From Microcella daejeonensis (GTDB taxonomy: Bacteria; Actinomycetota; Actinomycetes; Actinomycetales; Microbacteriaceae): a stretch of DNA of 64,000 nt. The stretch lies in the NCBI RefSeq assembly GCF_026625045.1, contig NZ_CP113089.1, positions 2,108,001 through 2,172,000 on the forward strand, written 5' to 3'. Each line of letters begins with the position of its first letter. Position 1 is the stretch's first letter. Shown piece by piece: positions 12,660 to 49,085 of this stretch. Under the pieces are notes generated by a model, which did not search any database, was not told the DNA's origin, and saw nothing but the letters and a program-made list of their open reading frames with translations. A program made the translations under genes and the position numbers.

Positions 12660-12661
12660 GC

Positions 12662-28549: not shown

Positions 28550-29158
28550 ATGGGGCACGAGGGGGAGCCGGGGCGCGGCGACGAGCACGACGACACCGTC
28601 ATCCGACCGCGCCGGTCGCTCGGTCCGAGCCCGCTCCCGGCCGAGGGCGTCGATGACGCGACCGTCATCCGCCTCATCGAGCCCGACATCCCGCCCACCG
28701 TGCCGCTCGGGGTGCCGGCCGGGGCGCCGCTCTCCGCGGCGGTGCTGCCGCCCCGTCCGCCCGACGAGCCCGTCGAGGCGAGCCCGCCCGCGCTGCCGGC
28801 GCCGCTCGCCACGCTGCGCATCCCGGGCGTCGATCGCGACGTGCCCCTCGACCGGCCGGTCGTGATCGGCCGCCGACCGGGGGCGGTGCGGATGCCCGAG
28901 ACGCCCTCCCCGCTGCGCATCGTCGTCCCCGCCGACCGCCGGGGCGTCTCGGCGCGGCACGCGCGCATCGAGCAGCTCGGCGGCGCCCTCGTCGTGACCG
29001 ACCTCGGATCATCCAACGGCATCGTCGTACACTTGCCCGGTGGGCCGGTCCGCCGGCTCCGCCCTGGAGAGTCCTGCGCGGTGCTCCCCGGCTCGGTCGT
29101 CTCGCTCGGAGACGGGATCGACATCGCCGTCCAGGCGATCGATCCCGGAGCGTCGTGA
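28550..29158 (+). CDS. FHA-domain protein with two N-terminal T-V-I-R motifs
   Basis: 202-residue cytoplasmic protein. A disordered acidic/Pro-rich N-terminal half carries DDTVIR (T16) and DDATVIR (T38), similar in form to the phosphorylated threonine motifs of actinobacterial FHA proteins such as GarA. The C-terminal FHA domain (about 90-195) has VIGRRPG, the phospho-threonine-binding SARHARI and the turn LGSSNGI. FHA domains bind phosphothreonine, so this protein could be phosphorylated by the kinase at 30159 and bind itself or partners. First gene of the locus. Confidence 0.88.
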   Translation: MGHEGEPGRGDEHDDTVIRPRRSLGPSPLPAEGVDDATVIRLIEPDIPPTVPLGVPAGAPLSAAVLPPRPPDEPVEASPPALPAPLATLRIPGVDRDVPLDRPVVIGRRPGAVRMPETPSPLRIVVPADRRGVSARHARIEQLGGALVVTDLGSSNGIVVHLPGGPVRRLRPGESCAVLPGSVVSLGDGIDIAVQAIDPGAS

Positions 29159-29219
29159 TCGGCGCCGCCCCCTCCGCACGACGCCCGTCCGCCCCTCGAA
29201 TCCCCGTACGGAGACGCCC

Positions 29220-30011
29220 GTGACCGCGCTCGGCCGCAGCACTGTGCGACACATCCTCGCCCTCCCCGATCGCGCCGACGTCGTCGAGCTCTCGTGGCAC
29301 GGCGTCACCCACGTCGGCTACCGCCGCGCCGCCAACGAGGACAGCTACCTCGCCGACGTGCCGCTCTTCGCCGTCGCGGACGGCATGGGCGGGCACGCCC
29401 ACGGCGACCGCGCCAGCGACGCGGTCGTGCGGCGCCTGCAGGCGGCCGTCGACGGCGACTTCGTCGAGCCCGACCGCATCATCGAGGCCCTGCAGCGGGC
29501 GACGATGGACATCGGCGAGCTCGACGAGGAGGAGCGCGGCATCGGTACGACCGTCACCGGCGCGGCGCTCACCCTGCACGACGGCCGGCCGGTGGTCACG
29601 GTCTTCAACGTCGGCGACTCGCGCGTGTACCTCTTCACCGGCAACGAGCTGCGGCAGGTCACCACCGATCACTCGATGGTGCAGGAGATGGTGGACGCCG
29701 GGCAGATCACCGCCGATGAGGCCGAGAGCCACCCCGACGCGAACGTCATCACGCGGGCCGTCGGCTTCTCGGTCGATCCCGAGATCGACTTCGTGCGCAT
29801 CCCGCTCGAGGCCGGCATGCGCCTGCTGCTGTGCTCCGACGGGCTGACGAAGGAGGTGCCGGCCGAGCGCCTGCGCCTGCACCTCGCCGCCCGCCTGAGC
29901 GCCCGGGAGACGGCGAACGCGCTCGTCGACGCCGCGCTCGCCCAGGGCGGCCGCGACAACATCACGGTCGTCGTCGTCGACGTCGTGCGCGCTCCCTCCT
30001 CCGACGACTGA
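29220..30011 (+). CDS. PP2C-family protein serine/threonine phosphatase
   Basis: 263 residues, GTG start with a GGAG SD about 7 nt upstream. The metal-binding motifs of PPM/PP2C phosphatases are present: RRAANEDSYL, VADGMGGHAHG, a GTTVTGA strand, VGDSRVYLF, LLLCSDGLTKEV and the C-terminal GRDNITVVVV. No transmembrane segment is seen, so it is cytoplasmic. It lies between an FHA protein and a Ser/Thr kinase and is the likely counter-enzyme of that kinase. Confidence 0.93.
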   Translation: MTALGRSTVRHILALPDRADVVELSWHGVTHVGYRRAANEDSYLADVPLFAVADGMGGHAHGDRASDAVVRRLQAAVDGDFVEPDRIIEALQRATMDIGELDEEERGIGTTVTGAALTLHDGRPVVTVFNVGDSRVYLFTGNELRQVTTDHSMVQEMVDAGQITADEAESHPDANVITRAVGFSVDPEIDFVRIPLEAGMRLLLCSDGLTKEVPAERLRLHLAARLSARETANALVDAALAQGGRDNITVVVVDVVRAPSSDD

Positions 30012-30158
30012 CGAGGGGAGCGCAGGCCCGGCCGCAGCCATCCCCGGCCGGACCCGCTCCGCGCATCCGACGCGCCGATCACGATGCGGTGACGCGGCAC
30101 GGCGGCGCTGCCCCCACTCCCTACACTGAGGGGAAGACAGCGGCAGAAGGGGGGAACC

Positions 30159-31547
30159 GTGGCGCGTCGTCGACCCTCGGATCCGCCGATCCTGCCGGGC
30201 TTCAGCCACATCCGCATGCTCGGATCCGGCGGCTTCGCCGACGTCTTCCTCTACGAGCAGAACATGCCCCGGCGGCAGGTCGCCGTGAAGGTCATGCTCG
30301 CCGACGTCGTCACCGAATCGGTGCGGCAGATGTTCCAGGTCGAGGCGAACCTCATGGCGCAGCTGTCGGCGCACCCGAGCATCCTCACCGTCTACCAGGC
30401 CAGCATCTCGGCCGACGGCCGTCCGTACCTCGTCATGGAGCTGTGCTCCGCGCAGCTCGCCGAGCGGTTCCGCCGCGAGCGGATGCCCGTGACCGAGGTG
30501 CTGCGCATCGGCGTGCAGATCGGCAGCGCCGTCGAGACCGCCCACCGGCAGGGCGTGCTGCACCGCGACATCAAGCCCTCGAACATCCTCACCACCGTCT
30601 ACGGGCATCCCGTTCTGAGCGACTTCGGCATCGCGGCGACGCTGAGCGCGGCGACGGCGCACGACACGGTCGGGATGTCCATCCCCTGGTCGGCGCCCGA
30701 GGTGCTGCTCGACACCACGCCGGGGGCGGTCACGAGCGAGGTCTGGTCGCTCGCCGCGACCGTGTACTCCCTGCTCGCCGGGCGCTCGCCGTTCGAGATC
30801 GTCGACGGCACGAACACCTCCGACGAGCTCATCGCCCGCATCACGAAGGCGAAGCTGCCGGCGATCGGGCGGGACGACGTACCCGACTCGCTCGAGCGGA
30901 TGCTGCGCCGGGGCATGTCGCGCGACCCGGGTCGCCGCCAGCAGAGCGCTATGGAGTTCGTGCGCGAGCTGCAGACCATCGAGCTCGAGCTCGGCTTCAC
31001 GCCGACGCCCGCCGACGTCGCGGTGCAGGACTGGGCCCTCGTCACCGCCGACGACCCCGGCGACCGCACGGTCGTGCGCGCGGTGGCCCCGGCATCGCCG
31101 GCTCCGCGCCCGGATCGGCGTCGGCGGCGATCGGCCCCCGAGGCGGCGGCGCCCGCGTCGACCGGCACGGGGGCGCGACGGACGGCCCCGCGCGGGCGGC
31201 TCGCGGCGGGCATCCTCGTCGGATCGGTCCTCGCGGTCGTCGGTCTCGGCGCCCTCGTGACCGTGATCGCGCTGCAGGGGGCCGATGGCGACCTGCCCCG
31301 GGTGACCGGTGTCACCGCGACGGTCGACGGCCCGACCGTCGCCTTCCGGTGGCCCGACCCCGGTATCCGCGAGACCGACGCGTTCCAGGTGCGCGTCGAG
31401 GGCGGCGAATCGACCGTGCAGCGCTCGACGGAGTTCTCGGTCGCCGCGCCCGAGGGCACGCGCGTCTGCCTCACCGTGAGCGTCACCCGCGAGGGCCGCG
31501 TCGGACCCTCCAGCGCCGAGCAGTGCGCCGAGTCGGCGGGGGGCTGA
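30159..31547 (+). CDS. transmembrane Ser/Thr protein kinase with FN3-like ectodomain
   Basis: 462 residues. Kinase domain about 15-280: glycine loop LGSGGFADVF, lysine K44 in VAVKVML, catalytic D137 in HRDIKPSNIL, and D155 in SDFG. The juxtamembrane linker is Pro/Arg-rich and holds DRTVVR (T304), matching motifs in the FHA proteins. One transmembrane helix (about 351-373) is followed by about 90 residues of beta-rich sequence resembling a fibronectin III fold, not PASTA repeats. GTG start with an AAGGGGGG SD; a TACACT -10-like box lies at 30122-30127. Two bases separate it from the giant gene. Confidence 0.92.
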   Translation: MARRRPSDPPILPGFSHIRMLGSGGFADVFLYEQNMPRRQVAVKVMLADVVTESVRQMFQVEANLMAQLSAHPSILTVYQASISADGRPYLVMELCSAQLAERFRRERMPVTEVLRIGVQIGSAVETAHRQGVLHRDIKPSNILTTVYGHPVLSDFGIAATLSAATAHDTVGMSIPWSAPEVLLDTTPGAVTSEVWSLAATVYSLLAGRSPFEIVDGTNTSDELIARITKAKLPAIGRDDVPDSLERMLRRGMSRDPGRRQQSAMEFVRELQTIELELGFTPTPADVAVQDWALVTADDPGDRTVVRAVAPASPAPRPDRRRRRSAPEAAAPASTGTGARRTAPRGRLAAGILVGSVLAVVGLGALVTVIALQGADGDLPRVTGVTATVDGPTVAFRWPDPGIRETDAFQVRVEGGESTVQRSTEFSVAAPEGTRVCLTVSVTREGRVGPSSAEQCAESAGG

Positions 31548-31548
31548 C

Positions 31549-34500
31549 GTGGGATTCCGGGACTGGTTCGCGCGTCATCGCTCGGCGGCCGTCAGCGGCA
31601 TCGGCGGCGGCACCGCCCTCGCCGTGCTCACGACGCTCGCGATCGTGGCCCCCGGGTTCCAGGCCGAGCGGCTCGACCTCAACGACGGCTCGGTGTGGGT
31701 CGCCAACGGCGAGCGCCAGGCCGTCGGTCGCGCGAATCTGCAGCTGGGCTCGCTCGACACGGTGGTGCCGGGGGAGGGCTCCTCGCTCGCGGTGGTGCAG
31801 GACGAGACCGACGTCGTCGTGGTCGACGCCGTCAACGCGACCGCCGACATCGTCGATGCGGCCCTCGCCGAGGTCTCCGACACCGTGCCGCTGCCGCCCG
31901 ACTCGCCGAGCCTCATGATGCTCGACGAGACCGCCGTCGTGCACAGCGGCGGCACCGGCGAGACCTGGCTCGTGCCGCGCACCCTGCTCACCGACTTCGA
32001 CTCCTTCTCGGCCGCGCCCTTCGTCTTCGGCGAGGGCTCCGCCGTCGTGATGGATGCCCGCCTCGGCCTCATCGCCGCCGCACCCGGCACCGCCGAGGTG
32101 CTGCGCATCCGCCTCGATGCCCCCGACCGCGTGGCCGAGCGCTGGCCGCTGCCCGTGGAGCCCGACGAGCCCGTCGCGGTGACCACCGCCGGCGACCGCT
32201 GGGCCGTGCTGTCCCTGCGCACGGCCGTGCTGCACACCGCCGAGGGCGCGGTGGATCTCTCGGGGTTCATCGACGCGCCCTCGGAGGCCGTGCTCGCGGC
32301 ACCGGGCGGTGACGAGCTGCTCATCGCGCATCCGGGCGGCCTGATCGCGGTCGACGCCGACGGCGGCGCGACGGTCGTCGCGGAGGGCCGCGACGGCCGC
32401 CCGGCCGCTCCCGCGCTGGTCGACGGCTGCGTGCTCGCCGCGTGGTCCGACGGCGCGGCATGGCGGCAGTGCGAGGGGCAGCAGGCCGTGCTGCTCGAGC
32501 TCGCCGGCATGGCCGCGAACGCCGAGCTCGCGGTCGCCGCTCGGGGCGGGCGCGCCGTGCTCAACGACACCCGCTCGGGATCGGCGTGGGCGGTGCAGGC
32601 CGACGGCGCCCTCATCGACAACTGGGACGAGCTCCTCGTCGAGGAGGAGGACGAGCAGCAGGCGCAGCTCGACGAGCTCGACACGCCGCCCGAGCTCGAG
32701 GTCGCGCCGCAGCCGCCCGTCGCCGTCGACGACGAGTTCGGCGCCCGCCCTGGCCGGGTCTCCCCGCTGCCCGTGCTGCTCAACGACAGCGATCCGAACG
32801 GGGACGTGCTCGTCATCAGCGCCGTCGAGCCGGTCGACCCGGCGTTCGGCCGCGTCGACGTCGTCGGTGCGGGCCAGCAGCTGCAGATCGAACTGGCGGG
32901 CTCGGCGAGCGGCACGGCGTCCTTCGCCTACACGATCACCGACGGGCGCGGCGGCAGCGACAGCGCCGTCGTGACCGTGACCGCGCGCGCGGCGGGTGAG
33001 AACGGGCCCCCGGTGCAGGTGCGCACGGCGAAGACCCTCGTCGCGGAGGGCGGCACGGTGACGGCCGCGGTGCTCGCCGAGTGGGTGGACCCTGACGGCG
33101 ACCCCCTCTACCTCGCCGACGCCGCGATCGCCGCCCCCGACGTCGTCACCTTCCGCGCCGACGGCCGGGTCACCGTGCGGGAGGCCGGCGGTGCCGGCGA
33201 GCTGCGCCCCGTCTCGCTCACCGTCTCCGACGGCGCGCTCAGCGGTGCCGGCTCGCTCGCCGTCACCGTGCAGCCGGTGGGGCAGACGCCGATCATCACC
33301 GAGCCCTTCGCGGTCTCGGCCTACGCGGGGGAGGAGGTGCGCATCGATCCGCTCGTGCACGTCCGCGGCGGCTCGGGGCCCATCCGGCTGAGCGCCGTGC
33401 CGCCCAAGCAGGGGTCGACGATCACCCCGAGCCTCGACCGCGGCATCTTCCGCTTCGTGAGCGACGAAGTGCGCACGCACTACCTCGAGTACGTCGTCAC
33501 CGACAACGAGGTGACGGCGACCGGCGTGGTGCGCGTCGACGTGCTGCCGCCGCCCGAGACGGGCGCGGGGCCGATCACCGTGCCGAAGACGGCGTTCGTG
33601 CGCACGCTGTCGAGCACCACGGTGGCCGTCGCGACGGCGGACATCGATCCCGCGGGCGGCGTCCTCGTGGTCACCGGCATCTCCTCCGTGCCGCCGGCGA
33701 GCGGCATCCGCGCCGAGATCCTCGAGCAGCGCGACATCCGCATCTCGCTCACCCGCCCGCTCGACGGCCCCACCGACGTGCGCTACCGCATCAGCAACGG
33801 GGTGGCCGAGGCGGAGGGCACCATCACCGTCATCGAGATCCCTCCGCTCGACCGGCTCCAGCCGCCGATCGCCCGGGACGACGCGATCACGGTGCGGGTC
33901 GGCGACGCCGTGAGCATCCCCGTTCTCGACAACGACGAGCACCCCGACGACGAGCCGCTCACGCTCTCGCCCGTGCTGCCCCAGGGCCTCGAGGGCGACT
34001 CCGGCCTCCTGTTCGTCGCCGGCGACCGCCTGCGGTACCTCGCGCCCGACCAGCCGGGCGAGTACACGGCCGTCTACGAGATCACCGGCCCTCTCGGGCT
34101 CGAGCGCGCCCAGGCGACCGTGCGCATCAGCGTGCGCGAGGTCTCCGTCGACACCAACTCCGCCCCGGTGCCGCGCACGGTGACCGCGCGGGTGATCGCC
34201 GGCGAGACCGTGCGCATCCGCATCCCCGTCGAGGGGATGGATCCCGACGGCGACTCGGTGCAGATCATCGGGCAGCAGACCGCGCCCGAGCGGGGCACCG
34301 TCACCGAGGTGACGGCAGACACCATCGTCTACACGGCGGGGGAGTACGCGGCGGGCACCGACGAGTTCCGCTACACCGTCGTCGACGCGCTCGGCGCGCG
34401 CGCGACGGGCCTCGTGCGCGTCGGCATCAGTCCGCGGCTCGACGGCGCCCGCAACCCCGTCGCGAACGACGACCTCGTCGTGGTGCGCCCCGGGGTCGCG

Positions 34501-37470
34501 GTGCTCGTGCCGGTGCTCGAGAACGACACCGACCCCGACGGCTCGGCGCTGCGGGTGAGCGCCGTGGAGTCCTCCGATCCGACGGCCGCCGCCGCGGTGG
34601 TCGACGAGGAGTTCGTGCGCGTCGTGCCGCCGGAGGGCACGGGCCGGTACGGGTTCGTGTACACGATCGTGAGCGAGGCGGGCGGAGCATCCCAGGCCTT
34701 CCTCACCGTCGACGTGGTCGAGGACGCCCCCCTCACGCCGCCCGTGGCGCGCGACGTCGTGCTGACCCTCGCCGACGTGCTCGACCGCGAGACGATCGAC
34801 GTCGACGTGCTCTCGCAGGTCTTCTTCGCGGAGGGCGAGATCGCCGAGCTCGGGCTCGGCATCGTGCCCGGCTACGACGGCGAGACCGCGCGCATCCTGC
34901 CGAACCGGAGCATCCGGGTCACAGTCGGCGAGCAGCGGCAGATCATCCCCTTCGAGCTGCGGCACCCCGTCGATCCCTCCGTGCGCGCCTACGCCTTCAT
35001 CTGGGTGCCCGGCACCGATGACGCGCTGCCGCAGCTCGATCGCCGGGCGCGGCCCATCAGCGTCGTGAGCGAGGAGACCGTCGAGATCGACATCAACGAC
35101 CACGTCATCGCGGTCGGGGACGACGGCGTGCGGCTGACCGATACCGCGACCGTGCGCGCGACGAACGCCGACGGCTCGTCCCTCGTGGTCGACGAGGACA
35201 CGCTGCGGTTCACCTCCGCCGACCTGTACTTCGGGCCCGCCTCGATCTCGTTCGAGGTGACCGACGGCACGAGCGCGACCGACCCGGAGGGACGCGTCGC
35301 GACGATCGTGCTGCCCATCGAGGTGACGCCGCGCGAGAACCAGCCGCCCGCGCTCATCGGGGCGACGATCGAGCTCGAGCCGGGCGGCGAGCGCGAGATC
35401 GACCTGCTGCGGGTGACCTCCTACCCGTACCCCGACGACCTCGAGGAGCTCGTCTACTCGGTGCTCGCCGGTCCGCAGGCGGGGCTCGAGGTGCAGCTGC
35501 GCGGGCAGACGCTCATCGTCAGCGTGCCGCCGGGAACGGCGCGCGGCACGATCGCGAGCGTCACCCTCGGTGTCCGGGATGACGCCGCGGTCGGCACCTC
35601 CGGCCGCGTCACGGTGACCGTCGTGCCCTCCACGCGTCCTCTCCCGAACCCGGCGGCGGATTCGGCGATCGCCCCGCGCGGCGAGACGACCACCGTCGAT
35701 GTGCTGCAGAACGACCAGGCGGGCAACCCGTTCCCCGACGAGCCGCTGCGGGTCGAGGCGATCCGCGGCATCGACGGCGGCTCGCTGCCGGCCGGGGTCC
35801 GCGTCGTCCCCTCGGACGACGGGCAGCGGCTCGAGGTGACGGTGTCGAGCACCGCCGCTCCCGTGGACACGAACCTCCAGTACCAGGTCTCCGACGCGAC
35901 GCGCGATCCGGATCGCTACGTGTGGGCCTCGGTGCGCATCTCGGTGCAGGACGTCCCGGACGCCGTGACCGGCCTGCGGGTGCAGGGGTACGGCGATCGC
36001 GAGCTCGAGGTCGCCTGGCAGCCCGGCGGGTCGAACAACGCCCCCATCGAGGGATTCGTCGCGCGCGTCGTGCGGGTCTCCGACGGCGCGCAGACCGCCG
36101 AGGTCGACTGCGCCTTCTCCCCGTGCACCGTGCCGACCCCCGGCAACGGCTCGGAGAACGCGGTGCGGATCAGCGTGGTCGCCCTCAACGCCCAGGGCGA
36201 GTCGGCGCCGACGACCCTCGCCGAGCGGGTCTGGAGCGACCTCGTCCCCCCGGCCCCGGTCATCTCGCGGATCACGCCGCTCGACGGCGGACTGCGCGTC
36301 GCCTTCCGCAAGCCCGCGCAGGAGGCGTCCGCCTCGCCGATCACTAGCTACGTGGTGACGGTCGGCCCCGTCGTGAGGGAGGTCCGGGCCCTCGCATCCG
36401 ACCCCGAGGGCACGGACTACGTGATCGCGGTGCGCGACGGAGCGCTCGAGAACGGCACCAACTACGGGGTGAGCGTGAGCGCCCGCAACGACTCGTTCGG
36501 ACCGCTCACGCGGTGGAACAGCGCCGAGGGGTCCGGCACGCCGGCCGGGGCGCCGCTCGTGGTCGGCGCGGTCTCGGCCGTCGGCTCGCGCGACACCACC
36601 GGCGACACCGGCCATCGCGTCGACGTCGCCTGGCCCTCGGTCTTCGCGGGCAACGGGCAGGCCGTGCAGTACTACTACGTCTGGGTCTCAGCGGGCGGAA
36701 CGGCGCCCGCCTGCACCGTGACGGGGGTCGAGGACGGCGCTCCGCAGCCCGTTCAGCCTCCCGGCACCACGAGGGTGGACGGCGCGACGAGCACGACGGT
36801 CTCCGGGCTCGCCGCCGACACCGAGTACCGGGTCGTCGTCTACGCATACAACGGGCAGGGATGCACGGCCGCCGTCGAGGTGCGCGCGACGCCGCGGCCC
36901 GTGCCCGGCGCCGTCACCGAGGTCGACGTCGCCGCGCCGCCCCGGCAGGCCGGCCCCAACGACATCGGACCGTGGAATCCCACCCTGCGCTCCGTCGCGG
37001 TCGAGGGCGGCGGGCGCATCGACAGCGTGCAGTACCGCCTCATCGCCGACGGCTCGACCCGGGGCGAGTCCGGCCTCGTGACGCTCCCGGCCGCCCTGAC
37101 GACGGCGGACCGCTCGCACTACGGCGCCGCCCTCGCCCTCGAGGTGCGGGCGTGCCGGCAGTACGAGACGCTGCTGTGCGGTGCATGGTCGGGGCCCTTC
37201 GCCCTGCCGGCCGCGGTCGAGATCGACGCAGCCCCCGCGGCGGAGTTCACCGAGACCTCGCCCGACGTGCGCGCCGTCGTCATCACCTGGAGCCCCGTCC
37301 GCGGCGCGGCGTACGACCTCGTCGAGCAGATCTGCCGCGGCGGTGCCGTCGTATCGATCGACACCGACGCGGGCCGGTGCGAGATGACGCTCTCCACCGG
37401 GCAGGTGCCCGAGCTCCTCATCCGCGTCCGAGAGGGCGGCGCGGAGTACGACCGGGTCTACCGGTGGTAG
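31549..37470 (+). CDS. giant surface protein with Ig-like and fibronectin III domains
   Basis: 1973 residues. A short Arg-rich cytoplasmic tip and one transmembrane helix (about 13-36) are followed by a beta-rich part with propeller-like repeats (about 45-360), an acidic linker (EEEDEQQAQLDELD, about 365-378), then about 1080 residues of tandem Ig/cadherin-like domains carrying recurrent LNDSDPNGD, DNDEHPDDE and ENDTDPDGS calcium-type turns, and from about 1469 to the end fibronectin III-like domains. It is very acidic outside the membrane. The protein is anchored by its N-terminus and would extend into or through the wall. It matches the Fn3 member of the Bifidobacterium PFNA cluster by position. 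Ligand unknown. Confidence 0.9.
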   Translation: MGFRDWFARHRSAAVSGIGGGTALAVLTTLAIVAPGFQAERLDLNDGSVWVANGERQAVGRANLQLGSLDTVVPGEGSSLAVVQDETDVVVVDAVNATADIVDAALAEVSDTVPLPPDSPSLMMLDETAVVHSGGTGETWLVPRTLLTDFDSFSAAPFVFGEGSAVVMDARLGLIAAAPGTAEVLRIRLDAPDRVAERWPLPVEPDEPVAVTTAGDRWAVLSLRTAVLHTAEGAVDLSGFIDAPSEAVLAAPGGDELLIAHPGGLIAVDADGGATVVAEGRDGRPAAPALVDGCVLAAWSDGAAWRQCEGQQAVLLELAGMAANAELAVAARGGRAVLNDTRSGSAWAVQADGALIDNWDELLVEEEDEQQAQLDELDTPPELEVAPQPPVAVDDEFGARPGRVSPLPVLLNDSDPNGDVLVISAVEPVDPAFGRVDVVGAGQQLQIELAGSASGTASFAYTITDGRGGSDSAVVTVTARAAGENGPPVQVRTAKTLVAEGGTVTAAVLAEWVDPDGDPLYLADAAIAAPDVVTFRADGRVTVREAGGAGELRPVSLTVSDGALSGAGSLAVTVQPVGQTPIITEPFAVSAYAGEEVRIDPLVHVRGGSGPIRLSAVPPKQGSTITPSLDRGIFRFVSDEVRTHYLEYVVTDNEVTATGVVRVDVLPPPETGAGPITVPKTAFVRTLSSTTVAVATADIDPAGGVLVVTGISSVPPASGIRAEILEQRDIRISLTRPLDGPTDVRYRISNGVAEAEGTITVIEIPPLDRLQPPIARDDAITVRVGDAVSIPVLDNDEHPDDEPLTLSPVLPQGLEGDSGLLFVAGDRLRYLAPDQPGEYTAVYEITGPLGLERAQATVRISVREVSVDTNSAPVPRTVTARVIAGETVRIRIPVEGMDPDGDSVQIIGQQTAPERGTVTEVTADTIVYTAGEYAAGTDEFRYTVVDALGARATGLVRVGISPRLDGARNPVANDDLVVVRPGVAVLVPVLENDTDPDGSALRVSAVESSDPTAAAAVVDEEFVRVVPPEGTGRYGFVYTIVSEAGGASQAFLTVDVVEDAPLTPPVARDVVLTLADVLDRETIDVDVLSQVFFAEGEIAELGLGIVPGYDGETARILPNRSIRVTVGEQRQIIPFELRHPVDPSVRAYAFIWVPGTDDALPQLDRRARPISVVSEETVEIDINDHVIAVGDDGVRLTDTATVRATNADGSSLVVDEDTLRFTSADLYFGPASISFEVTDGTSATDPEGRVATIVLPIEVTPRENQPPALIGATIELEPGGEREIDLLRVTSYPYPDDLEELVYSVLAGPQAGLEVQLRGQTLIVSVPPGTARGTIASVTLGVRDDAAVGTSGRVTVTVVPSTRPLPNPAADSAIAPRGETTTVDVLQNDQAGNPFPDEPLRVEAIRGIDGGSLPAGVRVVPSDDGQRLEVTVSSTAAPVDTNLQYQVSDATRDPDRYVWASVRISVQDVPDAVTGLRVQGYGDRELEVAWQPGGSNNAPIEGFVARVVRVSDGAQTAEVDCAFSPCTVPTPGNGSENAVRISVVALNAQGESAPTTLAERVWSDLVPPAPVISRITPLDGGLRVAFRKPAQEASASPITSYVVTVGPVVREVRALASDPEGTDYVIAVRDGALENGTNYGVSVSARNDSFGPLTRWNSAEGSGTPAGAPLVVGAVSAVGSRDTTGDTGHRVDVAWPSVFAGNGQAVQYYYVWVSAGGTAPACTVTGVEDGAPQPVQPPGTTRVDGATSTTVSGLAADTEYRVVVYAYNGQGCTAAVEVRATPRPVPGAVTEVDVAAPPRQAGPNDIGPWNPTLRSVAVEGGGRIDSVQYRLIADGSTRGESGLVTLPAALTTADRSHYGAALALEVRACRQYETLLCGAWSGPFALPAAVEIDAAPAAEFTETSPDVRAVVITWSPVRGAAYDLVEQICRGGAVVSIDTDAGRCEMTLSTGQVPELLIRVREGGAEYDRVYRW

Positions 37471-37472
37471 GG

Positions 37473-37577: not shown

Positions 37578-38542
37578 CGATGACCCCCGATCAGGCCCGA
37601 TGGTTCGCCGACATCTCCGCGCGCATCGTCGGCAACGTGGAGCAGGTGCTGCTCGGCAAGACCTACGTCGTGCGCCTGAGCCTCACGGCCATGCTCAGCG
37701 AGGGGCACCTGCTGCTCGAGGACGTGCCGGGAACGGGCAAGACCTCCCTCGCCCGTGCGCTCGCGCAGAGCATCCGCGGCACCACCACGCGCGTGCAGTT
37801 CACGCCCGACCTGCTGCCCGGCGACATCACCGGCATCACCGTCTACGACCAGCGCACGGGCGACTTCACGTTCCACCGCGGGCCCGTCTTCGCGACCATC
37901 GTGCTCGCCGACGAGATCAACCGAGCCAGCCCGAAGACCCAGTCGGCGCTGCTCGAGGTGATGGAGGAGGGTCACGTCACCATCGACGGCGTCACGCACG
38001 ACGTCGAGGCGCCGTTCCTCGTCATCGCGACGCAGAATCCCATCGAGCAGGCCGGCACGTACCGGCTGCCCGAGGCGCAGCTCGACCGCTTCATCATGAA
38101 GACGGCCATCGGCTACCCGGATCACGCCGCGACCGTGCGCATCCTCGACGGCGCGGGGGGACCGCGCGCCTCGGTCATCGAGCCGGTCGTCGGCCTCGAC
38201 GTCGTGCGCGACCTCATCGCCGCGGCCCGCACCGTGCACGTCGACCCCGTCATCACCGACTACGTGGCGCGCCTCGTGGAGGCGACCCGCTCGCACAGCG
38301 ACGTGCGGCTCGGGGCGAGCGTGCGCGGCGCCCTGGCGCTCGTGCGCTGCGCGAAGACCTACGCGGCGATGGAGGGCCGTCACTACGTCGTGCCGGACGA
38401 CGTCAAGGCGCTCGCCGAGCCTGTGCTCGGCCACCGGCTCGTGCTCGACACCGAGGCCGAGTTCGACGGCGTCACGACGGTCTCGGTGATGGGGCAGCTG
38501 CTGCTCGAGACGCCCCCGCCGAGCGACCGGGTCGCCGTGTGA
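37574..38542 (+). CDS. MoxR-family AAA+ ATPase
   Basis: 322-residue cytoplasmic chaperone-type ATPase. Walker A is EDVPGTGKTSLARALA, Walker B is VLADEINRASPKTQ, and VIATQNPIEQAGTYRLPEAQLDRF contains sensor 1 and the arginine-finger region. MoxR proteins commonly pair with DUF58 or VWA-domain proteins; here a DUF58 gene overlaps its stop (GTGA). GGAAGG at about 37556 is its SD, somewhat distant. It probably remodels the partner or another component of this locus. Confidence 0.93.
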   Translation: MTMTPDQARWFADISARIVGNVEQVLLGKTYVVRLSLTAMLSEGHLLLEDVPGTGKTSLARALAQSIRGTTTRVQFTPDLLPGDITGITVYDQRTGDFTFHRGPVFATIVLADEINRASPKTQSALLEVMEEGHVTIDGVTHDVEAPFLVIATQNPIEQAGTYRLPEAQLDRFIMKTAIGYPDHAATVRILDGAGGPRASVIEPVVGLDVVRDLIAAARTVHVDPVITDYVARLVEATRSHSDVRLGASVRGALALVRCAKTYAAMEGRHYVVPDDVKALAEPVLGHRLVLDTEAEFDGVTTVSVMGQLLLETPPPSDRVAV

Positions 38543-39966: not shown

Positions 39967-42311
39967 GCCGCGCGGCCGCGGCCGCCGCAGCACGCCGCCG
40001 CCGTCGACGCCCTCCGGTCACCCGTCCTCGGGCCGCGGTGCTCGTCTCCGCCGGGGTCTTCACGCTGCTCTCCTGGGCCGCCGTGGCCGCGGCGCTGTGG
40101 CCGATCTACCAGCACCCGAGCTTCCTTCTGCTCGCGGGCGTCGCGGTGCCGCTGGGCGTGCTGCTCGTCGTCGGAGGCCTGCTCGCGAAGTGGCGCGGCG
40201 AGGGCGTTCTGCTCGCCGCCGTCGCGCTCTTCATCATCGTCGGCGTGCCCCTCGCGGTGCCCGGGCGCGCGCTCTACGGCGTGCTGCCCGAGCCGCAGGG
40301 ACTGCTCGAGCTCGTCTCGGGGGTCGTGCTCGGCTGGCGGCAGCTCGTCACGATCGAGCTGCCGGTCGCCGACTACCAGGCGCTGCTCGTCCCCGCGCTC
40401 GTCCTCCTCCTCGCCGGCCCGGTGCTGACCGCGAGCATCGCGCTGCGCACCCGACGACCGGCCCTCGCGGCGCTCGTGCCGCTGCTCGCCTTCGCGCTCG
40501 CCGTCGCGCTCGGCTCCGAGCGCGTCCCGCTCCCGGCCGGCACGGCCGTGGCGCTCGCGGTCGTCCTACTGCTCTGGCTCGTCGTGCAGGGAAGGCACCG
40601 CCGTACGGACGCGGTCCGCTCCGGTGCCGCGCCCTCCTCGACCACCGCTGTGACGGGCGGTCGCGCAGCGGTCGCGCGCCCCGTCGTCGGCGCGCTGATC
40701 CTCCTGCTGCTCTCCGGCGGCATCGGCGCCGCGGCCGTCGCGATCGCTCCGCCCGAGCAGCAGCGCACCGTCCTCCGATCGCTCACCGAGCCGCCGTTCG
40801 ACCCCCGAGCGCTGCCGAGCCCGCTCGCCGCCTACCGCACGGCCTTCCTGCCCGGGGCCGTCGAGGCCCCGGCGGTGCGGGTGTCGGGGCTGCCCTCCGG
40901 CGCCCGGCTGCGGGTCGCGACGCTCGACAGCTACGACGGCGTCGTGTTCGCGGTCGGCAGCGAGCAGGTCGATGCGGCGTCGGGGCGGTTCGAGCGCATC
41001 CCGACGCGTCGCGACGTCACGGGCATCGAGGGCGACCCGATCGAGGTCGACCTCGTCATCGAGCAGCCCATCGGGCCGTGGCTGCCGACGATCGGCGAGT
41101 TCGCCGCGATCCGGTTCGACGGCGACGATGCGGCCGATGTGCGTGACCGCTTCGTCGTCAACGACGTCACCGGTACCGCGGCCCTCATCGGCGGGGTGGA
41201 TGCCGGACGCGCGTACCGCCTGACCGCCCTGCAGCCCGTGCTCACCCCGCCGGAGCTCGACGAGCTCGCGCCCGGCGCCGCCGCCGTCCCCGCGATCGCG
41301 GCCGTCCCCGACGAGCTGCGCACCTGGTTCCAGGCGGTGACGGTCGAGGCCGAGGGGCCGGGACCGCGTCTCGCCGCCGCCATCGCCGCCCTCCAGGAGC
41401 AGGGGTACATCTCGCACGGGGTCGGAGAGGACGAGCCGCCGAGCCGCTCCGGCCATTCGCTCGACCGGCTGGCCGAGCTGGTGACCGCCCGGCCCATGCT
41501 CGGCGATGCCGAGCAGTACGCGGCGGCGGCGGCGCTCCTCGCCCGCGAGGCCGGCTTCCCCTCCCGCGTCGTGCTCGGCTACGCGCCCGCCGGCTCCGGC
41601 GACCTCGTGCTGCGCGGGGCGGACCTCACCGCCTGGATCGAGATCGACGCGGCGGGCCTCGGCTGGATCCCCGTCGATGTGATGCCCCCCGAGCGCGAGA
41701 TCCCGCCGGCCGAGCCCGACGAGCCGATCCCCGTGACGCGCCCGCAGAACGCCGTGCAGCCGCCCGTCGAGGATCCGCCCGTGCGCGACGATCAGGCGCC
41801 GCCCGAGATCGAGCCGGGCGACGCGCCCGTCGACGACTCCCTGCTGGCCCTCGTCCTCCTCATCCTGACCATCACGGCAGCGGTGCTGCTCGCGCTCGGC
41901 CTCATCGCGGCGCCGTTCATCGGGATCGTCGCCGCGAAGGCCCGACGGCGCCGGCGTCGGCGGCGGAAGGGCGATGCCGTGCGCCGCATCCTCGCCGGCT
42001 GGCGCGAGGTGACGGACGCGGCCGTCGACCGGGGGATCCCGCTGCCGGCGGGCGGCACGCGCCGGGAGCTCGCCCTCGCGATCGGCAGGCCGCAGGCTGC
42101 CGTGCTCGCGCGGGTGGCCGACCGGGCCGACTACGCCCCCGAGGCGCCTCCGCTGGAGGAGGTCGACCGGGTCTGGCAGGCGGTCGACGCGGTGCGGGCA
42201 TCCCTCGCCGTCGACGGCACGCGTCGCGAGCGGTGGCGCGCCGCCGTCTCGACCCGCTCGCTGCGCCGATACCCTGGACGTGCACGACCCAGGGGAGGAG
42301 CGTCGCGATGA
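39963..42311 (+). CDS. transglutaminase-fold membrane protein, catalytic residues apparently lost
   Basis: 782 residues, GTG start overlapping DUF58. Several N-terminal helices (up to about residue 265), an extracytoplasmic region, the transglutaminase-like core (about 490-580), a Pro-rich linker, one more helix (about 625-655) and a basic cytoplasmic tail. In active relatives the Cys lies in a GxCExFA pattern and the His in a HAW pattern. Here the corresponding segments read GDAEQYA (Ala516) and LTAWIEI (Thr556), while Asp572 in WIPVD remains. It is therefore probably a pseudo-enzyme with a structural role. The position matches Tgm of the PFNA cluster. Confidence 0.85.
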   Translation: MSRAAAAAAARRRRRRPPVTRPRAAVLVSAGVFTLLSWAAVAAALWPIYQHPSFLLLAGVAVPLGVLLVVGGLLAKWRGEGVLLAAVALFIIVGVPLAVPGRALYGVLPEPQGLLELVSGVVLGWRQLVTIELPVADYQALLVPALVLLLAGPVLTASIALRTRRPALAALVPLLAFALAVALGSERVPLPAGTAVALAVVLLLWLVVQGRHRRTDAVRSGAAPSSTTAVTGGRAAVARPVVGALILLLLSGGIGAAAVAIAPPEQQRTVLRSLTEPPFDPRALPSPLAAYRTAFLPGAVEAPAVRVSGLPSGARLRVATLDSYDGVVFAVGSEQVDAASGRFERIPTRRDVTGIEGDPIEVDLVIEQPIGPWLPTIGEFAAIRFDGDDAADVRDRFVVNDVTGTAALIGGVDAGRAYRLTALQPVLTPPELDELAPGAAAVPAIAAVPDELRTWFQAVTVEAEGPGPRLAAAIAALQEQGYISHGVGEDEPPSRSGHSLDRLAELVTARPMLGDAEQYAAAAALLAREAGFPSRVVLGYAPAGSGDLVLRGADLTAWIEIDAAGLGWIPVDVMPPEREIPPAEPDEPIPVTRPQNAVQPPVEDPPVRDDQAPPEIEPGDAPVDDSLLALVLLILTITAAVLLALGLIAAPFIGIVAAKARRRRRRRRKGDAVRRILAGWREVTDAAVDRGIPLPAGGTRRELALAIGRPQAAVLARVADRADYAPEAPPLEEVDRVWQAVDAVRASLAVDGTRRERWRAAVSTRSLRRYPGRARPRGGASR

Positions 42312-43651
42312 TCTGTCGCCACTGCGGTGCGACGCTGCCCCCGATCGCCATGTTCTGCGGGGAGTGCGGTCGCTCGGTCGCCGCCCGCACGCCCGTCGTG
42401 CCCCCCGTCGTGCTGACGGCCGCGGCACCGGTGTTCTCGGCCGGCGAGGTGCTCTCGATCACGCCCGCGACGCCGCCGGAGGCCCCCGAGGACGATCCGT
42501 CGGAGCCGCAGGCCGATGCGCCGCCGCCCTCGTCCGTCTCGAACGCGGCGGGTGATCCGGCCGCCGGTGCGGCGGTGGATGCTCCCGCTTCGGCTCCTGC
42601 TGCTGCTCACGCTTCTGCTCACGCTTCTGCGCCCGCTCCCGCTCCTGCTCCCGCCGTCGCCGACGCGGTCGAGGCGGCAGCGCCCTCCGCGCGCGGAACC
42701 GCGGCGGCCGCGCCGCCTCCCGTCTGCGTCTCCTGCGGCACGGTGGGGGAGCAGGAGGACCTGTTCTGCGCCGAGTGCGGCGCGCCGATGCCGCAGGACA
42801 CCCGCGTGATCGAGCGCCTGGTCGCCCCGGCGCCTCCCGCCGAGCCGCGGGCTCCCGAGATTGCCCCGGCGGCCGCGCCGTCGACGCCGGAACCGACGCC
42901 GGATCCTGCCGCCGCCCCGCCGGCCCCGGAACCGGCCGCCGCCCCGCCGGCCCCGGAACCGGCCGCTGCCGGGCCGGCACCGGAGACGGTCGCCCCGCTC
43001 CCGTCCTGGGCGTCATTGCTCACCGGCAGCGCGGCGCCCGCGTCGAGCGGACCGCTCGCGTCGAGTACCGCCGCGTCCTCCGTCGTCGTCCCGGGGCGGG
43101 GTACGGCTGAGCCGGCGAGTACGCCGGCGGCGCCGGCGCCCGCGCGCGCCGTCCCCGAGGCCGCGGCCCCGCCCGTCGTCCCCGACGCCGCGGCGGCCCC
43201 GCTCGCGCCCGGCATCGAGCGCTCGGCCGACCGCGGGTCCGTGCGGGCGACCCCGCCGCTCGCCCCGCCTCCGCGGCTCGACCCCGACGTCGAGAGCACC
43301 CGCCTCGTCCCGCGCTCCGCCTCCGGCGCGCGCTTCGTCCTCCAGTTCTCGACCGGTGAGAGCTACACCGTGGTCGGGTCCGGTCTGATCGGGCGCAATC
43401 CGCGATCCGAGCCGGGGGAGGCCGTGGACCACCTCGTGACGATCGTCGATCCCGGCCGATCGGTCTCGAAGACGCATCTGGAGTTCGGCCAGGATTCCGG
43501 CGTCTTCTTCATCAGCGATCGGCACTCGGGCAACGGCACGATCATCCGCGAGCCCGGTGCGGAGCCCCGGTACGCCGAGCCGGGCCGCCGCTACCGCGTG
43601 GTGCGCGGCACCCGCGTCGATCTCGGCGAGCAGTTCGTCGTCATCAGCTGA
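42308..43651 (+). CDS. double zinc-ribbon FHA-domain protein
   Basis: 447 residues, ATG overlapping the previous stop (ATGA). The first zinc ribbon (CRHC at 3-6, CGEC at about 17-20) starts the protein; a second (CVSC and CAEC) lies near residues 140-160. Between and after them is a long Ala/Pro-rich disordered linker with an exact 27-nt repeat. The FHA domain (about 340-447) has VVGSGLIGRNPRSEPGE, the binding SVSKTHLEF and the turn RHSGNGT. A threonine motif VESTRLVPR (T331) precedes it. It likely reads phosphothreonine made by the locus kinase and sits directly before the FtsK ATPase. Confidence 0.88.
   Translation: MICRHCGATLPPIAMFCGECGRSVAARTPVVPPVVLTAAAPVFSAGEVLSITPATPPEAPEDDPSEPQADAPPPSSVSNAAGDPAAGAAVDAPASAPAAAHASAHASAPAPAPAPAVADAVEAAAPSARGTAAAAPPPVCVSCGTVGEQEDLFCAECGAPMPQDTRVIERLVAPAPPAEPRAPEIAPAAAPSTPEPTPDPAAAPPAPEPAAAPPAPEPAAAGPAPETVAPLPSWASLLTGSAAPASSGPLASSTAASSVVVPGRGTAEPASTPAAPAPARAVPEAAAPPVVPDAAAAPLAPGIERSADRGSVRATPPLAPPPRLDPDVESTRLVPRSASGARFVLQFSTGESYTVVGSGLIGRNPRSEPGEAVDHLVTIVDPGRSVSKTHLEFGQDSGVFFISDRHSGNGTIIREPGAEPRYAEPGRRYRVVRGTRVDLGEQFVVIS
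42911..42964 (+). repeat. exact tandem 27-bp repeat inside the FHA linker
   Basis: Two identical 27-nt units (42911-42937 and 42938-42964) encode AAPPAPEPA twice; a decayed third unit follows. Being in frame, the array can change length without frameshift. Confidence 0.75.
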
Positions 43652-43744
43652 GGCGGCTCCTCCCCAGACACCGGGGGCGACGCGCTCTCCAGAACGGTGC
43701 CGAGGTGCGGGCTCGGTGATGCGGCGGCGCGCTTCACTGGCCGG

Positions 43745-46420
43745 ATGCTCCGCCTCCCGCCCCTCCCGGCACCGCCCTCAGCGCCCCCGCGCGTGCCGTT
43801 CCCCCTGATCGCGGTCATCGCCCCTCTCCTGGGCGCCGTGGTGATCGGGCTCCTGGTGCGCAGCCCCTTCGTGCTGGTCTTCGCCGTGCTCAGTCCGCTC
43901 ATCGCGCTCGCCACCATGGCCGACGGCCGCCGCCAGGCCCGCCGCCATCGCCGCGAGGAGCGCGAGCGCTTCGAGCGCGAGGTCGTCGAGTACGAGAGGG
44001 AGATCGAGCGGGCGCACGCCGCCGAGCGGCTCGAGGTCGATCGAGCGCTCCCGCCTCCGTGGGCGGCGGGGGCGGGATCCCCCGGCGCTCCGCACCTCCC
44101 CGTGCGCATCGGGGTCGCCCCACGACCCAGTCGATGCGCGCCGGATGCCCCGCGCGCGCTCCCCGCCGATGCCGACGGCGACCGGCTCCGCGCACTCCAT
44201 GAGCGCGCGGCGGTGCATCCGTGGCTCCCGGTGGGGCTCCCGCCCGGCCCCGTCGTCGTCGAGGGGCGCGGAACGGCCGCGGACAATCTGCGCCGTCTCG
44301 TCACCGCCGCCCCCGGCACGACCCTCGTGACCGGGCCCTCCGAGGCTGCGTCCGCCGTGACGGTGCGCTCGGCCACGAGCGCGCGGCTCCAAGTACCGGG
44401 TGCGATCGGCATCGACCTGCGGCTCGAACCGGTCACCGCCCTCGAGATCGAGCTGATCCGACCCGTGGAGGCCGAGTCGGCTCTCCCGTCCTCGGTGCGC
44501 GTCGCCGAGCTCCCGAGCCCGAGCCCTCAACGGCCCGGCCGCATTCCGATCGGCGTGGGGGTGGAGGGCCCCGTTCATCTCGATCTGGTGGCGGATGGTC
44601 CGCACGCCCTCATCGGAGGCACGACGGGCAGCGGCAAGAGCGAGCTGCTGCGCACCCTCGTGCTGGGGTGGGCGAGCGCGGCCGCGCCCCGCGAGCACTC
44701 GGTCCTCCTGGTCGACTTCAAGGGCGGCGCCGCCTTCACGGGACTCGCCGCGCTGCCGCACGTCGTCGGACTCATGACCGATCTCGCGCCCGAGGCGGCC
44801 GAGCGGGCGCTCCGCAGTCTTCGGGCGGAGCTGCGTCGTCGTGAGCGGCTGCTGCTCGAGCACGGCTGCCGCGACATCGCCGAGCTGCCCCGGGGCGTGC
44901 TGAGCAGGATGCTGGTCGTCGTCGACGAGTACGCGGCGCTCGTCGAGTCGGTCGAGGAGCTGCCGGCGCTGTTCGCCGATCTCTCCGCCCGCGGGCGCTC
45001 CCTCGGCATCCATCTGGTGCTGTGCACGCAGCGTCCTGCGGGGGTGGTGCGGGATGCCGTGCTCGCCAACTGCTCCATCAGGATCCTCTTCCGGGTGACC
45101 GCGGCCTCCGACAGCCGGGCGCTGCTCGGGGCACCGGCGGCGGGCATCGAGGCCGCGCCCATCGGTCGCGCCGTCGTCGCGGCGGGCGGCGGGTCCGCCG
45201 TCGTGCAGATCGCCCGGATCGAGGAGGGCGACATCGTCGTGGTCGCCGACCGGCACCGCGCGGCGCCGGCGCCCGATCGCCCCTGGCTCGAGGCGCTGCC
45301 CGCGGTGATCCCGATGCCCCTCGACGAGGCGGGCGGCAGTCGGGGCGACCGCGTCCTCCCGGCCGGCGCCGCCTCGCTCGATGAGGGCGGGGGCTGGGCG
45401 TTCGGGGTGCTCGATCAGCCCGATGAGCAGCGGCGGGCGATCGCCCGGTGGGACCCTCGGCGTGATGGCGCGCTCCTCGTCGTCGGCGCCACCGGCAGCG
45501 GCCGCAGCCGTGCGCTGGGCGCGCTCGCCTTCTCGGCCGCCGGGGGCGGGGCGCCGGTCACCGTGCTGCCGATCGAGCCGGCCGCCGCCTGGGCGGTGCT
45601 CGGGGCGATCGTCGACGGGCGGCCCATCGCCCCACCCCGGGAGGCGGCGGGCGGCGATCCCGCAGGGCTCCTCCTCATCGACGACCTCGACGCCCTGCTC
45701 GCCGCCGCGGGCGACGCGACTCCCGCGCTGCTCGACCGGCTCGACGGTGCGATCCGGATCCTCCGGGCTCGGGGCGGGGGTCTCGCCGCGAGCGTGCGGG
45801 CTCTCACCGGCCTGCCCGCCTCCGCCGCATCGCGCTTCGACTCCGTCCTGCTCATGCGTGCCGCGTCGCTCGAGGAGCACCGACTGGCGGGGGGCGCGGG
45901 GCCGTGGAACCGGGATGCCCCGCCGGGGCGCGGGCGGTGGCACGGCACCCTCGTCCAGGTCGGGCTCTCGCCCGTGCCCCTGCCCGAGCCCGCGGCGGAT
46001 CCGATCGAGGAGTGGACGCCTCCGGCGGCGCCGATCGCCGTCGTCACCGCGCGGCCCCGCGCCGTGCTCGCGCGACTGGCCGAGAGCGGCATCAGCGCCT
46101 CGTCCGACCCCGGCGCACTCGCCGCCGCGACCGTCGACCTCGAGCATCCCGCGGTGCGTGCTCGCGCGGCCGCAGTGGTCGCGGCCGACGCCGAGACCTG
46201 GCAGTCGGCGTGGGGGGCGTTGTCCGCTGCCCGCCGCGAGGGGGCGATCGTCCTGGCGGACGTCACCGAGGCGGAGGTCCGGCTCCTGCTCGGTCACCGG
46301 ACCGCTCCGCCTCCCCGGCGCCTCGGCGCCTCCGCGGAGGTCTGGATCGCGGAGGCCGGTGAGCCGCTGCGCCGCGCGCGCTGGTCGGCCCTCGGCGCCG
46401 CCGCCGCTCCGGAGCACTAG
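43745..46420 (+). CDS. FtsK/SpoIIIE-type ATPase resembling EssC/EccC
   Basis: 891 residues. Two transmembrane helices (about 20-38, 41-58) are followed by a charged coiled coil (about 60-95), as in type VII secretion motors. The first ATPase domain has Walker A GGTTGSGKS (K298), LVDFKGGAAF and Walker B D394/E395 (MLVVVDEYAAL). The second has GATGSGRS (581-588), with Arg587 in place of the Walker Lys, and LLLIDDLDALL. An in-frame GTG exists at 43697; the ATG at 43745 gives the expected Pro-rich start before the helices. In Firmicutes EssC the FHA domains are fused at the N-terminus; here an FHA protein is the gene just upstream. No WXG100 gene is near. Confidence 0.9.
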   Translation: MLRLPPLPAPPSAPPRVPFPLIAVIAPLLGAVVIGLLVRSPFVLVFAVLSPLIALATMADGRRQARRHRREERERFEREVVEYEREIERAHAAERLEVDRALPPPWAAGAGSPGAPHLPVRIGVAPRPSRCAPDAPRALPADADGDRLRALHERAAVHPWLPVGLPPGPVVVEGRGTAADNLRRLVTAAPGTTLVTGPSEAASAVTVRSATSARLQVPGAIGIDLRLEPVTALEIELIRPVEAESALPSSVRVAELPSPSPQRPGRIPIGVGVEGPVHLDLVADGPHALIGGTTGSGKSELLRTLVLGWASAAAPREHSVLLVDFKGGAAFTGLAALPHVVGLMTDLAPEAAERALRSLRAELRRRERLLLEHGCRDIAELPRGVLSRMLVVVDEYAALVESVEELPALFADLSARGRSLGIHLVLCTQRPAGVVRDAVLANCSIRILFRVTAASDSRALLGAPAAGIEAAPIGRAVVAAGGGSAVVQIARIEEGDIVVVADRHRAAPAPDRPWLEALPAVIPMPLDEAGGSRGDRVLPAGAASLDEGGGWAFGVLDQPDEQRRAIARWDPRRDGALLVVGATGSGRSRALGALAFSAAGGGAPVTVLPIEPAAAWAVLGAIVDGRPIAPPREAAGGDPAGLLLIDDLDALLAAAGDATPALLDRLDGAIRILRARGGGLAASVRALTGLPASAASRFDSVLLMRAASLEEHRLAGGAGPWNRDAPPGRGRWHGTLVQVGLSPVPLPEPAADPIEEWTPPAAPIAVVTARPRAVLARLAESGISASSDPGALAAATVDLEHPAVRARAAAVVAADAETWQSAWGALSAARREGAIVLADVTEAEVRLLLGHRTAPPPRRLGASAEVWIAEAGEPLRRARWSALGAAAAPEH

Positions 46421-49055: not shown

Positions 49056-49085
49056 TCCCTCTTACCCCGAAGGAGTGTCACCCCG

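Follow-up and report, generated by a model that had tools for sequence, protein, structure and literature searches.

The PFNA operon of Bifidobacterium consists of the genes pkb2, fn3, aaa-atp, duf58 and tgm, accompanied in some species by prpC, a hypothetical gene and fha; its FN3 protein has been reported to bind TNF-alpha and its Pkb2 kinase to phosphorylate MoxR (PMC8430577, excerpt). A published remark likens the mycobacterial moxR operon to PFNA (PMC12067865, excerpt). For type VII secretion systems (T7SS), a 2024 survey of variants names T7SSa and T7SSd for Actinomycetota (PMC11217815, excerpt). The words MoxR, transglutaminase and fibronectin do not occur in the excerpt of that survey, and the words T7SS, ESX, WXG and FtsK do not occur in the PFNA paper PMC8430577. 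No link between PFNA and type VII secretion was found in the open-access literature, and none stands in the excerpts of PMC8477406, PMC5720513 and PMC8191103, which bring up type VII secretion beside Bifidobacterium, EccC or DUF58. Here, a nine-gene locus of Microcella daejeonensis is described, in which a PFNA-type core stands beside an ATPase of the EccC/EssC type; it lies in a stretch of 64,000 nucleotides (contig NZ_CP113089.1, positions 2,108,001 to 2,172,000; hereafter the window) of a 2.72 Mb genome assembled as a single contig.

Among Actinomycetes, the PFNA cluster travels with type VII secretion genes, which is a new finding. The locus in the window is read here as a PFNA-type cluster of nine genes with a shortened EccC/EssC-type ATPase and, with a probability of about 0.55, as a compact, phospho-controlled, type VII-like exporter of an orphan WXG100 protein encoded at a distance. 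Every step of the mechanism, export included, is read from protein families and gene neighbourhoods. The kinase, the PP2C phosphatase and two FHA proteins would switch the assembly on and off, MoxR and the DUF58 protein would remodel or assemble the membrane complex, the anchored giant protein and the pseudo-transglutaminase might form or gate the wall-spanning part, as proposed for TsdI of T7SSd, and the short ATPase would drive the orphan WXG100 protein, with its WxG turn and YxxxE signal, across the membrane. The features of the locus are listed below (window coordinates; aa, amino acids; TM, transmembrane).

28550..29158, + strand: FHA-domain protein of 202 aa, FHA at residues 104-187 (Pfam PF00498, E 9e-8; translation)
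29220..30011, + strand: PP2C-type Ser/Thr phosphatase (Pfam PP2C_2, E 5e-13; NCBIfam Stp1, E 3e-62, 210 bits against a cut-off of 230); start uncertain, GTG at 29220 or 29244
30159..31547, + strand: Ser/Thr kinase with a C-terminal hydrophobic, TM-like stretch (Pfam Pkinase, E 4e-40)
31549..37470, + strand: giant envelope protein of 1973 aa, with N-terminal TM, beta-propeller, Big_9/cadherin repeats and one fn3 match (Pfam; AlphaFold of residues 1-392; Foldseek)
31690..32682, + strand: predicted beta-propeller of the giant protein, residues 48-378 (AlphaFold model; Foldseek)
37574..38542, + strand: MoxR AAA+ ATPase (Pfam AAA_3, E 4e-62)
38539..39966, + strand: DUF58 protein (Pfam PF01882, E 5e-10)
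39963..42311, + strand: TgpA-like pseudo-transglutaminase membrane protein, catalytic Cys absent (Pfam TgpA_N and Transglut_core)
41508..41510, + strand: Ala codon at the place of the transglutaminase catalytic Cys (GDAEQYA in the window)
42308..43651, + strand: zinc-ribbon protein with a C-terminal FHA (Pfam Zn_Ribbon_1, E 2e-10; FHA, E 3e-5)
43697..46420, + strand: short EccC/EssC-type ATPase with N-terminal TM region, two P-loop modules and no FHA (Pfam FtsK_SpoIIIE; NCBIfam); start at 43697 or at ATG 43745
44528..45196, + strand: D1, the first ATPase module of the short ATPase, GTTGSGKS ... VVVDE ... RGRSLGIHLVLCTQRP (16-row alignment)

The nine genes that a sequence-only reading of this stretch had placed on one strand are present as open reading frames (ORFs) at 28550-46420 on the + strand, and Pfam confirms their families. 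That reading described them as mostly joined by overlaps, which proved too generous: ATGA/GTGA overlaps occur at three of the eight junctions (38539/38542, 39963/39966 and 42308/42311), and the remaining five are gaps of about 61, 147, 1, 103 and 45 bases. The possibility of a WXG100 gene hidden between the nine genes was discarded, the gaps reaching at most about 147 bases. Since the same genes recur in identical order in seven other Microbacteriaceae loci, the nine-gene set is more than a chance arrangement. The 202-aa FHA protein contains the motifs GRRPG, SARH and SSNG (translation), which we take to be those of the phosphothreonine pocket.

PFNA clusters travel with type VII secretion genes

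The DUF58 gene served as the anchor of the neighbourhood surveys. At order level, 119 genomes gave 67 PFNA-type DUF58 places (E<=1.2e-43) in 59 genomes, and in at least 22 of the 67 an EccC/EssC-like match lies within 20 kb downstream on the same strand; over the same distance, the matches listed include none upstream and none on the opposite strand. At least 19 of these 22 matches are open frames of 1465-1743 aa, and they carry eight family labels. The full form met with most often runs giant, MoxR, DUF58, Tgm, zinc-ribbon FHA, PP2C, FHA, kinase, small protein and EssC, followed by WXG100-type genes. Locus L112 follows this order from the Tgm gene onwards (Tgm, zinc-ribbon FHA, PP2C, FHA, kinase, a 231-aa protein, EssC and a weak WXG100 match). 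Its 231-aa protein has no Pfam match, and ORFs at the place of the small protein in three other loci match an FHA profile; its EssC, which has an FHA domain, scores 522 bits with TIGR03928 (cut-off 778), and the 99-aa protein after EssC stays under the WXG100 cut-off (21.5 of 27.3 bits). WXG100 matches over cut-off are found in L113 (56.6 bits) and L121 (about 29). WXG100-type genes after the full-length EssC are repeated within a few kb (L112 12512-13458; L121 10878-12859), as copies of equal length with identical first 50 residues.

A second scan, of named genomes, kept 80 of 582 relatives, and 50 of the 80 loci (49 genomes) were searched further; contig identity rests on coordinates, the ATPase start being seen inside the locus in some. 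A long ATPase stands beside the core in 32 of the 50, a short one in six and neither in 11, and one was dropped (taken out of 33 long-adjacent loci because its match was a coordinate coincidence). In one locus, L116, the gene caller found no FtsK. The loci with a long ATPase include Promicromonospora, Cellulosimicrobium, Oerskovia, Isoptericola, Agreia, Arthrobacter, Herbiconiux, Microbacterium, Brachybacterium, Nocardioides, Aeromicrobium, Schaalia and other genera, and all six with a short ATPase belong, by their titles, to Microbacteriaceae. A PF06013 WXG100 match lies within 15 kb in 21 of the 32 long-ATPase loci, 2-7 kb on, and in none of the six short-ATPase loci. FHA, PP2C and EccC/EssC-class ATPase genes thus adjoin the core in several families, a joint occurrence on which the sequence-only reading had staked its case against a chance meeting of two operons. 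As a side observation, an Arthrobacter-like PFNA cluster turned up in a record titled Sporosarcina beigongshangi, probably a mislabelled or mixed assembly.

The short ATPase, its candidate WXG100 partner and the envelope proteins

The window ATPase is assigned to the EccC/EssC class. Its nearest NCBIfam models are EssC and EccC (E 2e-53 and 3e-53), its best PDB sequence match is EccC 4nh0 (E 3e-55), and Foldseek places 4nh0 first for its AlphaFold model (E 7e-31), followed by other EccC/EssC entries and later by FtsK motors; the model was made from 7 rows, with a mean predicted local distance difference test (pLDDT) of 80.6 and a predicted template modelling score (pTM) of 0.62. A housekeeping FtsK, also considered, was discarded on the PDB sequence and Foldseek rankings, and the EccC/EssC-like identity proposed from the letters alone was borne out. 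The short ATPase aligns to the long form of the same genome from the TM region through D1 (long-form residues 230-478 and 546-918), and its second P-loop module fits D2 best (hhalign E 2e-28; D3, 2e-11). It has no N-terminal FHA (Pfam) and no third P-loop (alignment to the long form), and its C-terminal residues, about 130 aa, are unaligned to the long form. The D1 motifs are conserved in 16 aligned short-ATPase rows. A quick D1 tree of 77 rows left out eight rows, three as repeats and five from loci in which the gene caller had found no ATPase, and had one row relabelled long and one short; because one branch (Shimodaira-Hasegawa-like approximate likelihood ratio test, SH-aLRT, 100) sets the 35 long rows apart from the rest, a single switch between long and short forms suffices. 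In this tree, the window ATPase groups with a same-genus genome and Microcella alkalica.

A single short ATPase per genome is found at E<=1e-64, a cut-off set at a gap in the match list, in 91 of the 149 Microbacteriaceae genomes sampled, and a profile search of the remaining 58 gave eight more, for a total of 99; in one locus set, an ORF scan placed the short ATPase in 20 of 20 loci. It starts 2.9-7.7 kb downstream of the PFNA DUF58 gene in 53 of the 91. The candidate cargo is an orphan WXG100 protein of about 96 aa (PF06013, E 4e-18), orthologous across Microbacteriaceae genomes and encoded in the own genome about 0.67 Mb from the window locus, beside groEL. It adjoins groEL in all 14 loci in which it was called, the gene caller having found no WXG100 in seven of 21 loci. 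W43, G45, Y83, E87, N90 and F94 are invariant in 10 rows, so that the WxG and YxxxE motifs are present. The invariant residues keep the spacing of the published C-terminal pattern HxxxD/ExxhxxxH, with Asn at the 'h' place, as in the quoted PE25 example (PMC3935865, excerpt).

The orphan and the short ATPase occur together. With a profile cut-off of E<1e-20, at a clear gap in E-values from 4e-22 to 4e-13, the orphan is found in 107 of the 149 genomes: in all 91 genomes with a short ATPase at the first cut-off and in 16 of the other 58, of which eight have a short ATPase, three a single-module relative and five none found. Among the matches listed for the 42 genomes without the orphan there is no short-type ATPase, and the final table of 149 genomes therefore reads both 99, ATPase only 0, WXG100 only 8 and neither 42. 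At the level of genera, with the first cut-off, the corresponding numbers are 48, 0, 7 and 21. Some WXG100 is found in all 53 adjacent-form genomes, and in 20 of them the short ATPase is the sole EccC/EssC-like match at E<=1e-30, with no more than 10 candidates per genome being scored, and exactly one WXG100 match is present. As a control, the orphan is found in 88 of 127 genomes with a PFNA-type DUF58 and in 19 of 22 without (p 0.13); it does not track PFNA-type DUF58.

In the kinase family, the catalytic Lys, the HRD Asp and the DFG Asp are intact wherever a letter stands in 135 aligned rows. The N-terminal part of the giant protein is a predicted beta-propeller (AlphaFold mean pLDDT 87.5), whose best PDB matches by Foldseek are the YVTN propeller 1l0q and BamB. 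An N-terminal hydrophobic stretch, read from the window letters and computed for relatives, would anchor it. No C-terminal TM helix is seen in the window letters, and the C-termini of 32 relatives are not hydrophobic.

Further loci of both kinds are present in the same genome. A second PFNA copy at about 271-289 kb has the order PP2C, FHA, kinase, 240-aa protein, giant, MoxR, DUF58, Tgm, zinc-ribbon FHA, 97-aa protein and 562-aa protein, the last with a T7SS_signal match (E 2e-7). A 1495-aa EssC-like ATPase is encoded at 1.32 Mb and followed, some 8 kb later, by a WXG100 gene; the PF06013 matches over cut-off in this genome are at 1334587 and 1483732. The second PFNA copy is followed by a tandem row of six ORFs, each of 130-155 aa and with a similar lipoprotein-like start (L038 6484-9416); the one tested has no NCBIfam match at E<=1e-20. 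Upstream of this copy, csrA-like and FlhA/FlhB/FliR/FliQ-like flagellar export genes were recognized by eye (L039 12369-17747).

Alternative explanations

Several points weigh against the exporter reading, and they concern the motor, the cargo and the tie between the ATPase and the core. On the side of the motor, scores with the type VII models of NCBIfam lie far under the curated cut-offs, the third ATPase module has no P-loop counterpart in the short ATPase, and the short ATPase of Microcella alkalica has lost its second P-loop as well. In Thermomonospora curvata EccC, the substrate signal peptide binds the third ATPase module. The title of PDB entry 4n1a names ATPases 2 and 3 with a signal sequence peptide. 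Four NTPase domains are predicted in the ATPases of T7SSc-j (PMC11217815, excerpt), and the two P-loop modules of the short ATPase fall short of a full C-terminal set. On the side of the cargo, no PF06013 WXG100 match is found in or near the window locus, and the orphan occurs in eight genomes that lack a two-module short ATPase, three of them (including G176) with a single-module relative of 318-338 aa and five with none found. Shared ancestry may also account for part of the co-occurrence of the ATPase and the orphan: when 20 selected genomes were placed on a tree of their housekeeping FtsK, only two independent contrasts had support, and both agreed (sign test p 0.5). Only trait-concordant genomes were chosen for it, with the five full exceptions left out and the single-module G176 counted as positive, and because of this choice the tree tests only the frequency of joint change. 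The exporter reading is weakest at the missing third ATPase module, and its main rival is that two modules share one locus.

According to this rival, which we consider unlikely although it survives best, PP2C, FHA and the short ATPase would handle the orphan WXG100 on their own, and kinase, giant, MoxR, DUF58 and Tgm would form a separate envelope sensor or surface complex, perhaps sharing the phosphatase. It is here that the looseness of the tie between ATPase and core also speaks against the exporter reading: in 38 of the 91 genomes, no listed PFNA DUF58 stands in the 12 kb upstream of the short ATPase. Seventeen of these 38 loci were examined, and 11 consist of the ATPase and PP2C, with or without FHA genes and with no core gene seen. 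Since the short ATPase persists without the PFNA core, the two need not be one machine. Eleven short-ATPase genomes have no DUF58 match at E<=1e-45, although in one, G255, MoxR is encoded some 7 kb downstream. A site marked by aminobutyraldehyde and alanine dehydrogenases shows the range of forms, from the full nine genes through FHA-PP2C-FHA-ATPase and FHA-PP2C-ATPase to PP2C-ATPase, the reduced sets standing between the same flanking genes. Several genomes of 1.3-2 Mb keep the ATPase at this site with no core genes in view, one small-genome genus has the 318-338-aa single-module form, and two genomes of 1.6-1.8 Mb carry the full cluster. On the simplest reading, the core would have been lost from the gene-poor loci, and ATPase plus PP2C (with or without FHA) looks like a persistent module to which the PFNA core is an attachment that many lineages lack.

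On the other hand, adjacency is kept in 53 of the 91 genomes, and the other six of the 17 re-examined loci do have core genes, three with giant-MoxR-DUF58-Tgm directly upstream of the short ATPase and three with MoxR or MoxR-DUF58 a few kb downstream. Moreover, in other families the core precedes a full-length EssC, often with WXG100 genes, and core and secretion ATPase therefore belong together more widely. The earlier claim of one joint locus thus stands for the core next to an ATPase in several families and gives way where the short ATPase is separable. In the window, the flanks of the locus (26975-28525 and 47877-50300) contain an aminobutyraldehyde dehydrogenase and a polyamine-type ATP-binding cassette transporter (PotD/PotA-like); dehydrogenase genes on both sides mark the same site in many relatives.

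It is improbable that the locus is a host- or environment-sensing adhesin operon as in bifidobacteria, in which sensing falls to the kinase and outside binding to the fn3 protein, the ATPase being incidental. Although the same five core families stand in the same sequence in the PFNA operon, for which TNF-alpha binding and MoxR phosphorylation are reported (PMC8430577, excerpt), the cluster occurs in many genera, with a long EssC-type ATPase beside it in the 32 named loci given above, and the extracellular part of the giant is built, by Pfam and the model, from a propeller and Ig repeats, fn3 being matched only once. The name giant adhesin, given to this protein from the letters alone, is not supported as it stands, its N-terminus being a predicted propeller.

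Less probable still is a decaying type VII locus with the ATPase as a truncated, functionless remnant. The FHA domains and one ATPase module are gone, and one relative has a degenerate second P-loop, as would be expected of decay, but a single copy is kept in each of the 91 genomes, several of only 1.3-2 Mb among them, the D1 motifs are conserved in the 16 rows and one D1-tree branch splits the long rows from the short ones. As for a chance junction of two unrelated operons, which the differing place of the kinase could suggest (before the giant in the window type, after Tgm and PP2C in the full type), the downstream position of the ATPase in 22 of the 67 places and across eight family labels, with nothing among the listed matches on the other side or strand within 20 kb, makes it very hard to credit.

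The exporter reading thus keeps the lead, and as a whole the sequence-only interpretation is partly supported. If the exporter reading is true, the PFNA operon, so far studied as a bifidobacterial immune-sensing locus, gains a role in secretion, Actinomycetota gain a further type VII subtype, and type VII export may run on a two-module motor with its cargo encoded at a distance; the prediction comes down to two genes, the short ATPase and the orphan WXG100. A wider proposal, to which we give somewhat less than even odds, is that Microbacteriaceae run a minimal, split type VII system (two-module ATPase and PP2C, with the groEL-side WXG100), that PFNA is the wall-spanning, phospho-gated part of a subtype outside T7SSa-j and that the bifidobacterial PFNA is a motor-less relic or offshoot.

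Comparison with known systems

Of the described type VII variants, T7SSd (TsdA, C, D, H and I) shares with the window locus a membrane kinase, a giant Ig-like envelope protein and an EssC-class ATPase (PMC11217815, excerpt), but the window giant does not have the C-terminal TM helix of TsdI, and the window ATPase is shorter and without FHA. The gaps between the nine genes have no room for TsdH, nor does the window ATPase carry an FHA. That the window locus is T7SSd itself was rejected after comparison with locus L281, which has a T7SSd-like set at 746-14275: kinase, 147-aa TM protein, 1798-aa giant, 1523-aa ATPase and proteins of 171 and 93 aa. The L281 giant has both N- and C-terminal TM stretches, the profiles for MoxR, DUF58 and Tgm find nothing in the T7SSd-like locus, and a PFNA cluster of its own lies some 32 kb from that locus in this genome.

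With EccC/EssC of T7SSa and T7SSb, the short ATPase can be aligned over the TM and N-terminal regions, over D1 and over a further P-loop module, and it differs in having no N-terminal FHA, only two P-loop modules and an unaligned C-terminus. EccB, EccD, EccE and MycP were not found by Pfam among the nine genes, no genome-wide search having been made for them, nor among 10 proteins scanned past the ATPase in five other loci (L111, L112, L113, L121 and L041).

The Tgm-like protein shares with TgpA (6g49) a TgpA_N membrane domain and a transglutaminase-like fold, but not the catalytic residue. The place of the cysteine is fixed by the alignment of a relative with TgpA, in which GDDEQYA faces GFCAHYA, and in 161 aligned rows, some of which repeat one genome, Cys stands there in none of the 156 with a letter, four rows of bifidobacterial gene order included. 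The His of the triad is found in 74 of 157 rows. The pseudo-transglutaminase call of the sequence-only reading is thereby upheld: the protein has, as judged from these alignments, lost its catalytic cysteine.

Six further loci (L275-L280) belong to a family, f4, that would be the bifidobacterial one by its gene order. They carry an EccC-like ATPase whose open frame spans 593-761 aa and whose profile E-values run from 1e-77 to 1e-93. A LytR_cpsA_psr protein is nearby in L275 (Pfam, this locus only), and a WhiB-like gene was seen by eye in L278 and L279; a crude scan found no WXG100-like ORF in the six stretches.

The closest likeness is to the PFNA operon of Bifidobacterium, as the sequence-only reading had recognized: the same five core families stand in the published order, and PP2C and FHA genes are present too (PMC8430577, excerpt). 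In contrast to that operon, one FHA gene and PP2C lead the window cluster, the zinc-ribbon FHA and the short ATPase end it, and its giant has one fn3 match where two are described. Because PP2C and FHA already belong to the published eight-gene PFNA cluster (PMC8430577, excerpt), the new elements are the ATPase and the link to WXG100.

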